From assembly GCF_000789255.1 (NCBI RefSeq), contig NZ_CP009552.1, forward strand, positions 1,054,001 through 1,118,000: a stretch of DNA of 64,000 bases, in the 5' to 3' direction. The position numbers and the translations under genes were made by a program. Below the pieces are notes generated by a model that was not told the DNA's origin, ran no database searches, and worked only from the letters and a program-made list of their open reading frames with translations. Source of the DNA: Geoglobus acetivorans (GTDB lineage Archaea > Halobacteriota > Archaeoglobi > Archaeoglobales > Archaeoglobaceae). Position 1 is the first letter of the stretch; each line of letters starts with the position of its first letter. Shown piece after piece: positions 586-3,896 of this stretch.

Positions 586-637
586 TGGTTGATTGGTAAA
601 TTTTAAAAACGCATAACCATAGCAATTATACGGAGGT
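586..637 (+). promoter_or_regulatory. Promoter and RBS of the actin-like/MinD unit
   Basis: A TATA-like TTTTAAAAA lies at 601-609 and a strong Shine-Dalgarno GGAGGT at 632-637, 7 nt before the ATG at 645. The stretch TGGTTGATTGGTAAA (586-600) just upstream of the TATA box recurs almost unchanged upstream of the gene at 5843. Assignment rests on archaeal promoter spacing only. Confidence 0.55.
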
Positions 638-644
638 AATTATT

Positions 645-1688
645 ATGGCAGAAGGTAATGGTGGCAACGAAACAAACAAAAAGCCAGGCGTTATTCCTGT
701 GGGTATAAAGGTCGGTTCTCAGAAAACCGTTATTGCGATGGGAGACGAGATACACGTTGAGGAGACCTGCATTAGAGAAAAGGAGAATCCCGTTACCGGA
801 GCAAAGGACTACATCATCGGTAACGATGCTTCCGAGCTTTATGGAGATGACGTCACATACATGCTCAGAGGAGGTTTGCCGGCAACAGAAGAGGAGGCTG
901 AACTGCTCAGAATCTTTCTCGGAGAGGTGGCCAAGAAGTACGGGATTCCTGAAAACTCCTACGTCACGTATGCCATCCCATCCACGGAGCTGGAAGAGGG
1001 CATCGCACTTTTCAAGAAGGTTGTGAGTCAGGTTCCAATCGGATGGTCGGGGAAAGAAGTCTGGAATGACTCATTTCTGGCATCACTCGCCCTTCCAGAG
1101 GGTCTGGGAATTCTCGACAGGACATACGCAGTTATAAACCTGGGCTCCACAACCACGGAATTTGTTGCCGTGAGAAAGGGTGAAATCGTATTCAGCATGG
1201 TTACCGGAGAGGTTTCGGGAGACGTGGTTGACAGGTGGATAAAGAACGAAATCATGAACCTCACGAGAGGTGCGGTTAACGTTGACCTGTCCACCGCAAG
1301 AGAATACAAGGAGAGGTATGCAAATCTGCTCGAGTGGAAAAACATAAAGGAGACGGTTCAGCTCTTCGAAAAGGGTCAGTTCACATTCAGACTTGATGAG
1401 GCTGTGAACAGACCTGTGGAAAGATATCTTGATGGACTGATAGACTTCGTGACCCTTGAGGTACTGCCATCCCTTGCAGAGTTCAATTTCAAGATTTACA
1501 GGCTGGTAACGGGTTCAGAATTCGTGCTGACCGGCGGTATGGCGAGGATTCCAGGACTCAAGGAGAAGTTCGAAACCAAACTGTCAGATGCTCTGGGAAG
1601 TGCCATAAAAATCAGAGTTCCGGATGACCCGCTGACAGCCTCAGCAAGAGGTGCACTCACGATAAGCACTCTGAGAATCAAAAAGTGA
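645..1688 (+). CDS. MreB/actin-like (ASKHA fold) protein
   Basis: This 347-residue protein has the actin/Hsp70 fold landmarks in order. Phosphate-1 is GIKVGSQKT (about 20-28), phosphate-2 is INLGSTTTE (about 164-172), the adenosine loop is LTGGMARIPG (295-304), and an MreB-like tail DDPLTASARG lies near 327-336. The usual acidic residue of phosphate-1 is Lys22, and the Asp that normally opens phosphate-2 is Asn165, so nucleotide hydrolysis may be altered or lost. It is soluble, with an unstructured Asn/Gly-rich N-terminus. It heads a unit with a coiled-coil protein 9 nt downstream and a MinD-type ATPase, which suggests filament-based positioning or shape control. MreB is the closest family I recognise, but it could be an archaeal crenactin-type or plasmid-type actin. 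Confidence 0.85.
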   Translation: MAEGNGGNETNKKPGVIPVGIKVGSQKTVIAMGDEIHVEETCIREKENPVTGAKDYIIGNDASELYGDDVTYMLRGGLPATEEEAELLRIFLGEVAKKYGIPENSYVTYAIPSTELEEGIALFKKVVSQVPIGWSGKEVWNDSFLASLALPEGLGILDRTYAVINLGSTTTEFVAVRKGEIVFSMVTGEVSGDVVDRWIKNEIMNLTRGAVNVDLSTAREYKERYANLLEWKNIKETVQLFEKGQFTFRLDEAVNRPVERYLDGLIDFVTLEVLPSLAEFNFKIYRLVTGSEFVLTGGMARIPGLKEKFETKLSDALGSAIKIRVPDDPLTASARGALTISTLRIKK

Positions 1689-1697
1689 GCGTGAAAG

Positions 1698-2321
1698 GTG
1701 ATGTCCGCTGAAATCCTGAAAAAATGGGACCATCTGTTTGAACAGCTGAAAAAATTCGTTGAAGAGGATTTGCCGGCCCTTGAAGAAGCAATAATACAAT
1801 CTACAGAACAGATAAAACATATAGATTCCAAAACCGAAGAATTGAGGTCAGAATTCCTTGAAGAACTTGAAAAAAGAGATGATCAGATAAAGAAGATTAC
1901 GGAAAGAGTCGAAAACCTTGAAAAACTGGTAGACAGTTCAAAAATCAGTGAGCTCATCAAACAAGTGCTTTCATCAATTTCTTTCCAGAAAAAATACAAG
2001 GAAGATCTGGAAAACCTCAAACTACTGATTTCTGATCTCGAGAACAAAATAGAAGAAATCAACGCAAGTAGTGTTTTCAACGAAATAAGTCAGATGAAGG
2101 CGGAGATCTCACGATTATCAGAATCCCTTGGTCAGGTCGATACCATTTCTGAAGAGGCTTCTGCAAAAGAGCTCGAAAAATTATCAACCGAAATGGCTGA
2201 ACTGAAGAATGCTGTCGCTCAAATAAGTATGGAGATCGGACAGCTGAAGAACAGCGTCAGTGAGAGATACTGGGTGAGTAAGGAAAGGAAAACAGAGAGT
2301 AAATCCCCGAGGATTCTATGA
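1698..2321 (+). CDS. Coiled-coil protein
   Basis: A 207-residue, Glu/Lys/Leu/Ser-rich protein that is predicted almost entirely as alpha-helical coiled coil from about residue 10 to 190, with repeated leucine/isoleucine heptads and few aromatics or prolines. There is no signal peptide or membrane segment. Translation can begin at GTG 1698 or, more likely, at ATG 1701 next to it. The stop codon overlaps the next gene's start (ATGA at 2318-2321), so the two are translationally coupled. Lying between an actin-like protein and a MinD/ParA-type ATPase, it is a plausible adaptor linking the two. That role is inferred from context only. Confidence 0.85.
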   Translation: MMSAEILKKWDHLFEQLKKFVEEDLPALEEAIIQSTEQIKHIDSKTEELRSEFLEELEKRDDQIKKITERVENLEKLVDSSKISELIKQVLSSISFQKKYKEDLENLKLLISDLENKIEEINASSVFNEISQMKAEISRLSESLGQVDTISEEASAKELEKLSTEMAELKNAVAQISMEIGQLKNSVSERYWVSKERKTESKSPRIL

Positions 2322-3121
2322 ATACAGCAGACACGCTAATCGAGCTCACAAAATTCGAGCGGAAGCTCAGAAGGATTGTGAGAGACTACTTCAGATTAAA
2401 AACAGCCGGTGCAAGGGTTTTAGCTTTTCCTTCGGGCAAAGGGGGAGTTGGAAAAACCACGGTAACAATGAACCTGGCCTCTGCTCTCGCTCTGAGAAAA
2501 AGGAATGTAATTGTGATAGATGCAAATCTCGCGCTTCCAAATGTCCATACGTTCATTGAAGAGATGCCAGAAAAAACTCTGACAGAGTATCTCATGGGAA
2601 ACGCTGGCGTTGACGAGATAAAATCCAGAATGAAGGTGAGAAATACTGGATTCGACGTTATTCCGGCAAAATCTCTTGTTGACGTGGAAAAGGGGATCGA
2701 AATTGAAAAAGTGAGGGATCTGATACTTGCCCTGAAACCAGATTATGATTACATCCTGATAGATTCCTCGCCCGGATTATCGAAATACGCACTGTATCCT
2801 GCCATGATCTCGGATACAACATTCATAGTCTCTGCCGAACTGAAGCCAGCATACATTGACGCAATCAAGGTGGAATCGGTTCTCAGCAGACTCGGTGTGA
2901 GCTTAGAAGGGTACATCATAAACATGGTTACAAAATCCGGGATCAAATACTTCTACAACAAAAACATATTCGGGATAATCCCTTATGACGGAAAGCTCAA
3001 GAGCATGTTCTCCACAGGCAAGACAATATTTCACTCATGGCTCAGCTTCCTTTACCCGAGCAGAAATGCATTCCTGCACCTTGCCGACAGGATTGTTGCA
3101 GAATACCCTCCCATGGTCTGA
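2318..3121 (+). CDS. MinD/ParA-family P-loop ATPase
   Basis: 267 residues. After an N-terminal amphipathic extension of about 30 residues comes the deviant Walker A SGKGGVGKTT (39-48), with the signature lysine typical of the ParA/MinD/SIMIBI class. It is followed by a switch I-like DANLALPN (68-75) and a DSSPG switch II near 149. Such ATPases dimerise on ATP and pattern cargo on membrane or DNA. The last 30 residues (FHSWLSFLYP region) are hydrophobic and could form a membrane-binding helix as in MinD. The start overlaps the upstream stop by 4 nt. No ParB-like partner is present. The actin-like and coiled-coil neighbours suggest positioning of a cellular structure. Confidence 0.88.
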   Translation: MNTADTLIELTKFERKLRRIVRDYFRLKTAGARVLAFPSGKGGVGKTTVTMNLASALALRKRNVIVIDANLALPNVHTFIEEMPEKTLTEYLMGNAGVDEIKSRMKVRNTGFDVIPAKSLVDVEKGIEIEKVRDLILALKPDYDYILIDSSPGLSKYALYPAMISDTTFIVSAELKPAYIDAIKVESVLSRLGVSLEGYIINMVTKSGIKYFYNKNIFGIIPYDGKLKSMFSTGKTIFHSWLSFLYPSRNAFLHLADRIVAEYPPMV

Positions 3122-3171: not shown

Positions 3172-3307
3172 GGGGTCGTGGCGTAGCCAGGAAGCGCGGC
3201 GGGCTCCAGCGGTGTGATGACTGATGGGTCTGCTGAGCGGTGATGATCCGCTGGAGTGCTGACCCGGGGAGACCCGCCAGTCGTGGGTTCAAATCCCACC
3301 GGCCCCA
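3172..3307 (+). tRNA. tRNA-Trp (CCA) with a 62-nt intron encoding a box C/D guide
   Basis: Acceptor GGGGTCG (3172-3178) pairs with CGGCCCC (3300-3306), with A73 at 3307 and no encoded CCA. The D-arm, the anticodon stem GCGGG/CCCGC, the loop with CCA at 3206-3208, and the T-arm GTGGG/CCCAC are all intact. The intron runs from 3210 to 3271, between nucleotides 37 and 38, the standard place for archaeal tRNA-Trp. It carries box C (3214-3220), D' (3233-3236), C' (3240-3246) and D (3259-3262). Splicing would need EndA, which is encoded at 39886 in this window. Confidence 0.96.
3210..3271 (+). ncRNA. Box C/D guide RNA inside the tRNA-Trp intron
   Basis: GTGATGA occurs at 3214-3220 and 3240-3246 (boxes C and C'), and CTGA at 3233-3236 and 3259-3262 (D' and D). 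The D guide CCGCTGGAG pairs across exon 1 and the start of the intron, and its fifth nucleotide from box D faces C34. The D' guide GGGTCT pairs with AGACCC in exon 2, placing its fifth nucleotide opposite C39. This matches the known archaeal arrangement in which the intron guides 2'-O-methylation of residues 34 and 39 of its own precursor. Pairing was worked out by hand from the sequence. Confidence 0.92.
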
Positions 3308-3551: not shown

Positions 3552-3896
3552 ATGAAAGAAAACCTGATGAAAAATCTGAAAAAACTCTCCAAAACTGGAA
3601 GCTTCAAAATACTGATTGCCTTAAATGACGGTTCCAAAAGATGGAGTCAGTTGGAGAAAGTAACTTACAAGAAGAGTCCATACCAAAGCATCAATGGGCT
3701 TTTCGATATAGACCTGATTGAAGTAACAGTAGCTCAGGATGTTTCTACAGGCTTGAAAGCCTACCAGTTCGCTCATCCAGGCAAAAAAGTTGTTCAGTAT
3801 CTGGAGCAGATTGAGAAGGAGTTTGAGGAGTACCATTCCAAGGCTCCGCCTAAGGATCCGGAGGAGTTTATTGGGGAGTTGATGGAGGAAGATTGA
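3552..3896 (+). CDS. Winged-helix transcriptional regulator-like protein
   Basis: A 114-residue basic protein whose residues 10-80 look like a winged helix-turn-helix. A helix ends in the FKILIAL segment, then comes a turn, a putative recognition helix at SPYQSINGLFDI, and a beta-wing carrying VTVAQDVSTGLKAYQF. The C-terminal 30 residues are acidic and helical and may mediate dimerisation. It resembles archaeal HxlR/MarR-like one-domain regulators without a clear family match. Its stop codon abuts the ATG of the membrane protein at 3897, so the pair is probably an operon and the regulator may act on it. The segment is AT-rich compared with flanking core genes, which suggests acquisition. Confidence 0.65.
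   Translation: MKENLMKNLKKLSKTGSFKILIALNDGSKRWSQLEKVTYKKSPYQSINGLFDIDLIEVTVAQDVSTGLKAYQFAHPGKKVVQYLEQIEKEFEEYHSKAPPKDPEEFIGELMEED

Follow-up and report, generated by a model that had tools for sequence, protein, structure and literature searches.

The operon and its setting

The window analysed here is a stretch of 64,000 nucleotides from the genome of Geoglobus acetivorans, a single contig of 1,860,815 bases. Near its start, and where the preliminary description had placed them, three genes follow each other on the + strand (Table 1), coding for a salactin-family actin, a coiled-coil protein and a MinD-family ATPase. The first two are separated by a gap of 12 nt and the last two share a 4-nt ATGA overlap; together with the same gene order in 14 genomes (see below), this spacing bears out the view that the trio is one coupled unit. 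ORF starts are mechanical calls, and the coiled-coil gene has an alternative GTG start at 1698. The salactin gene is preceded by a TATA-like A/T stretch (~601-609) and by the ribosome site GGAGGT (632-637); a single predicted promoter for all three genes is plausible. Among named relatives, the actin gene matched Geoglobus, Ferroglobus and Archaeoglobus MAGs. Genomes are cited below by G numbers and loci by L numbers.

Table 1. Features of the trio and its upstream region, in window coordinates.
Feature	Position	Strand	Basis
Region 5' of the operon with TATA-like A/T stretch and ribosome site GGAGGT	599..637	+	read from sequence
Salactin-family actin, 347 aa	645..1688	+	NF053533, PF25229, fold of a relative's model
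Proposed adaptor of 206 aa, coiled coil	1701..2321	+	helix periodicity, position beside salactin
N-terminal module WDxLFxxL...P of the coiled coil	1701..1775	+	invariant residues, 14 aligned copies
C-terminal tail KSPRIL ([KRH][ST]PR[IL]L) of the coiled coil	2301..2318	+	17/17 distinct copies
MinD-family ATPase, 267 aa	2318..3121	+	PF13614, fold of a relative's model, own clade
N-terminal helical extension of MinD, ~30 aa	2318..2413	+	present in trio MinDs, before the first strand
Deviant Walker A of MinD, SGKGGVGKTT, intact	2432..2461	+	sequence alignment
Asn70 of MinD, where MinD and Soj have the switch-I catalytic Asp (E. coli D40)	2525..2527	+	alignment

The first gene encodes a salactin

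Gene 1 is an actin-fold protein of the salactin family. It scores 407.7 bits over positions 17-342 against the NCBIfam salactin equivalog NF053533, above the cut-off of 400, and matches the Pfam Salactin model PF25229 at 8.6e-92 (308 bits); MreB and FtsA models gave weak scores in the profile search. Of the earlier label "MreB-like", the actin fold thus stands, while the generic MreB assignment gives way to salactin by these two models. The salactins of genus g12, G055, G114 and G189 score 320-392 bits, under the NF053533 cut-off. A PDB sequence search with the gene 1 actin alone as query returned no match, and the closest solved folds to the model of the salactin from relative G024 are those of MreB and MamK. 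The family loops GxKxGSxxT, NxGS and GGM are kept in all 33 aligned salactins, save for S/A at one site, with Lys in the first phosphate loop and Asn in the second in every one of them. The Lys occupies the position of the first phosphate-loop Asp of MreB-type actins. Such loop residues do not imply an inactive salactin, because the protein of Halobacterium salinarum polymerises with ATP (PMC10746226).

The H. salinarum protein belongs to the same family by curated models, shares the invariant GxKxGSxxT and NxGS loops, forms dynamically unstable, pole-anchored filaments and affects DNA partitioning; its deletion causes poor DNA partitioning in low phosphate and leaves motility normal (PMC10746226). 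The same study already recorded homologs in Archaeoglobi, judged neighbourhood synteny to be uninformative, with no consistent partner, and postulated an unknown "kinetochore-like" attachment (PMC10746226). Unlike the H. salinarum protein, for which alone polymerisation is known, Archaeoglobales salactins have fixed partners in the coiled coil and MinD. MamK, a near fold match of the salactin model, was named as the nearest bacterial relative (PMC10746226); none of the known adaptor families of MamK is matched by the trio coiled coil, and magnetosome membership is not indicated.

The coiled-coil protein is conserved at its two ends

The product of gene 2 had been called a nearly pure coiled coil, and indeed it is almost entirely helix-forming: hydrophobic residues recur with a period near 3.5, and G+P make up 1.9% of the sequence. 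Within Archaeoglobales its length ranges from 149 to 265 aa and its middle part is unconserved. The residues that are invariant among 14 aligned copies lie close to the start (the start Met, L6, W9, D10, L12, F13, L16 and P25) and at the C-terminal end (S202, P203, R204 and L206). The [ST]PR[IL]L tail occurs in 17/17 distinct copies of the protein versus 0 of ~4,080 other ORFs of at least 60 aa within the fetched loci, where it is confined to salactin neighbours, across four families. Two of the tailed copies beside salactin belong to two lineages outside Archaeoglobi: that of G114 is a full-length homolog (1.7e-49), and that of G189 has 499 aa and is recognised by position and tail only. Homolog searches in haloarchaea and f11 genomes gave generic internal coiled-coil matches only. 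A basic stretch precedes the tail, and the Pfam profile search recognised no DNA-binding domain.

With a variable coiled coil between two conserved ends, the protein looks like an adaptor that docks at both of them, which favours the preliminary proposal of a bridge. Furthermore, the coiled coil is kept with salactin where no MinD adjoins, namely in G021, G114 and G189, so that salactin is the likely partner of at least one end, which probably binds it.

The MinD-family protein has lost its catalytic aspartate

Membership of gene 3 in the MinD/ParA family, as read originally, rests on its match to PF13614 (3.3e-19) and its intact deviant Walker A motif. Against the archaeal MinD model TIGR01969 it scores 110 bits, under the cut-off of 201.75, and is hence related to this subfamily and outside it. 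The closest fold to a model of a relative's gene 3 protein is the MinD 1G3Q, with Soj/ParA structures also among the fold matches. The trio MinDs form their own clade, separate from the other MinDs of the same genomes (support 90/81).

In this clade the second Asp of the switch-I DxD is replaced by Asn (15/15 aligned members), while it is present in four paralogs from the same genomes and in 1HYQ. In B. subtilis, MinD carrying D40A is a locked dimer that no longer forms a gradient and gathers in clusters at poles and septa (PMC13246001). That change is one of Asp to Ala. The Asn of the trio MinD need not abolish hydrolysis. A C-terminal membrane-targeting tail is absent from the trio MinDs; their paralogs, among them the second MinD of the window's genome (L152), end in KKYGKLKYLLGLA-like tails. 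The hydrophobic C-terminal helix noted at the outset does exist, yet in the alignment to 1HYQ it corresponds to the final helix of the MinD fold rather than to a membrane-targeting tail. Altogether, the loss of the catalytic Asp throughout the clade suggests a gradient-type ATPase that may have turned into a static scaffold.

The N-terminal extension of the trio MinDs appears as a lone low-confidence helix in the model of a relative. Two genomes of the window's genus, G026 and G030, retain the MinD gene at the same ThiC/TrpB-flanked locus, with salactin and coiled coil gone. Both orphan MinDs are on long branches; that of G026 lacks the helix, and in that of G030 it can no longer be recognised. 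Since it is lost where salactin and the coiled coil are lost, the pattern suggests that the helix may serve the trio, and we read the two genomes as a putative natural deletion; the losses may be one single event, or may partly reflect poor start calling.

Conservation of the trio

Among 59 genomes of the class, salactin is present in 15. The order salactin, coiled coil, MinD, put forward earlier from the window, is kept in relatives: it recurs in 14 of the 15 salactin-bearing Archaeoglobales genomes, and salactin and the coiled coil are adjacent in all 15, G021 being without an adjacent MinD. The 14 genomes represent 5 genera and 2 families, with intergenic gaps of -4 to 93 nt, and include G042, whose trio is split by a contig break between genes. 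Flanking genes vary, and no non-trio gene is common to most genera at these loci. Across the 59 genomes, salactin and the MinD clade tend to occur together (14/1/2/42; Fisher p = 1.3e-10, not corrected for relatedness), and the conservation of the trio is far beyond chance. Some genomes of the window's genus are without salactin. KaiC-like ATPase genes lie 3' of MinD in genomes of this genus (L069 4285-6344 and L120 8913-11614) and persist where salactin has been lost.

Genes beside salactin in other genomes

Upstream of the trio of G023 we found genes coding for a PilB3-like secretion ATPase, a T2SSF platform and a pilin-like protein, and an ortholog of this platform gene (1e-154) lies downstream of the trio in genus g12. 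No pilus genes were recognised beside the trio in the window, and the best pilus platform gene of the window's own genome is 60 kb away. Co-occurrence of pilus genes and trio is uninformative, because a platform gene is present in 58 of the 59 class genomes. A prepilin peptidase gene follows salactin in the f11 loci L083 and L131.

An arlD-like gene (Arch_fla_DE, PF04659) adjoins salactin in 23 of the 30 haloarchaeal loci L036-L065, often overlapping the salactin start. Such adjacency is seen in most of the haloarchaeal loci L036-L065, L082, L084, L123-L126, L128-L129, L132 and L134. The archaellum clusters of six such haloarchaeal genomes contain ArlCE and no separate ArlD-like ORF, while in G159, from another family, ArlD lies inside the archaellum cluster; judged from this distribution, the salactin neighbour is probably ArlD itself. 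Archaellum positioning as a general function was rejected for the window, whose genome has no Arch_fla_DE match. One haloarchaeal genome, G377, carries two salactins above cut-off (C4:204701-205705 and C18:170794-171795).

In genus g12 (L073 6965-7921, L074, L076, L078 6802-7764) a PhoU gene lies directly 5' of salactin and, farther upstream, a divergent phosphate-binding gene. Given the low-phosphate phenotype of the H. salinarum deletion, the position of PhoU is suggestive, within one genus.

A possible salactin, adaptor and ATP-switch apparatus

With these data in mind, we consider the chances about even that the trio forms an apparatus of salactin, adaptor and ATP-dependent switch that anchors or positions a cargo. 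Salactin would polymerise into a filament as its haloarchaeal relative does. The N-terminal module and the [ST]PR[IL]L tail of the coiled coil would dock on different partners, with the variable middle as a spacer, and the MinD-like protein would join through its extra N-terminal helix. The latter may act as a slow or non-hydrolysing ATP-dependent dimer and hence as a hub or switch, not as a cycling former of gradients. As cargo of the assembly, a type IV filament machine or pole hub would be the first candidate and the chromosome the second.

Structure models are of single chains and of proteins from relatives of the window. An AlphaFold2 read-through chain of G024 salactin and coiled coil gave confident bodies and a disordered tail; its long single helix keeps the tail off its own actin, which makes it a weak test. 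The equivalent chain of G027 coiled coil and MinD likewise gave confident bodies, with the MinD helix at low confidence; neither chain gave docking information.

The choice of first cargo follows from the neighbouring genes. Salactin or the trio lies beside arlD, prepilin peptidase or platform genes; in Haloferax, MinD2 and MinD4 control polar foci of the archaellum and ArlD (PMC11588486), and an association with pilus systems has been described for archaeal FleN/MinD and KaiC ATPases (PMC4858521). These links point to the pole or to type IV filament machinery. Two findings speak against such a cargo: the H. salinarum deletion has a DNA phenotype and leaves motility normal, and the window's genome lacks an Arch_fla_DE match. 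The trio MinD resembles FleN/MinD (arCOG00589, PMC4858521) and bacterial TadZ in that a MinD-family ATPase lies near pilus ATPase and platform genes in two genera; it differs in sharing its operon with salactin and a tailed coiled coil and in the replaced catalytic Asp. Haloferax, where MinD-family proteins control pole machinery, offers a parallel in the arlD-like gene beside salactin in many haloarchaea, a parallel from which the window's genome departs.

Segregation of the chromosome is a less likely alternative. Salactin filaments would push or pull DNA, the coiled coil would be a ParR-like linker from filament to DNA, and the MinD-like protein would bind the nucleoid like ParA/Soj. The partitioning defect of H. 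salinarum led its authors to propose a segregation apparatus (PMC10746226), and a MinD free of a membrane tail, the Soj/ParA fold matches and the basic stretch before the coiled-coil tail all fit this reading. However, no direct-repeat array of parC type was found near the trio in the window and three relatives, a distant site being possible; the coiled coil has no Pfam DNA-binding domain, a ParA-type mechanism needs hydrolysis, for which the catalytic Asp has become Asn, and genomes of the same genus manage without salactin. As in ParMRC and Alp7A, an actin and a small adaptor-like gene share one operon; unlike these systems, the trio has neither a recognised DNA-binding domain in its coiled coil nor centromere-like repeats found nearby, and it has an extra MinD-family gene.

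The three genes might also be merely co-transcribed from one promoter in one lineage, with no physical partnership of their products. In G021, G114 and G189 salactin does without an adjacent MinD, and the case for a partnership comes from sequence; yet the unit persists while its flanks change, the tail is specific to salactin neighbours, in four families, and loss of the MinD helix coincides with that of salactin and the coiled coil, which together make this reading improbable. A MinD/ParA gradient or oscillator that places poles or septum and is bridged to actin, the reading first given to these genes, would suit the gene families, the operon and the control of polar archaellum foci by Haloferax MinD2 and MinD4 (PMC11588486), but we hold it to be very improbable because the switch-I Asp is Asn in all aligned clade members, the C-terminal membrane tail is absent and the gradient is lost in D40A MinD of B. 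subtilis (PMC13246001).

Returning to the anchoring apparatus, a wider version of it would be an undescribed system of Methanotecta, in which the dynamically unstable salactin is captured by the tailed adaptor and a catalytically stalled MinD-type dimer, all of them together holding machinery of the pole or of pili. The adaptor would be replaced in haloarchaea by a polar protein of arlD type, which would explain the growth of salactin from the poles. We regard this extension as speculative and rather improbable.

Salactin and the occurrence of MinD-type ATPases near pilus genes are already known. The operon partners, the tail motif, the clade with Asp changed to Asn, the natural deletion and the arlD adjacency were not found in the open-licence papers searched (preprints excluded), nor was any archaeal trio of this kind, in agreement with the preliminary description; this is weak evidence of novelty. 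For the attachment of salactin, the Archaeoglobales operon supplies two candidate partners. The candidate docking elements, namely the SPRIL tail, the WDxLF module and the MinD N-terminal helix, are short and mutable, and the haloarchaeal arlD adjacency offers a third candidate salactin partner in genetically tractable haloarchaea.

Other features downstream of the trio

A small protein encoded at window positions 3552-3896 has a sub-threshold HxlR match (0.022); the pfam01638 regulator family has been linked to MinD-like ATPases (PMC4858521). Between this gene and the trio, at 3172-3307, lies an intron-containing tRNA gene (Rfam tRNA, 47.4 bits) that ARAGORN missed. Its intron contains a C/D box guide RNA, sR3 (3210-3264, 48.4 bits), which looks like the known guide in the intron of archaeal tRNA-Trp.
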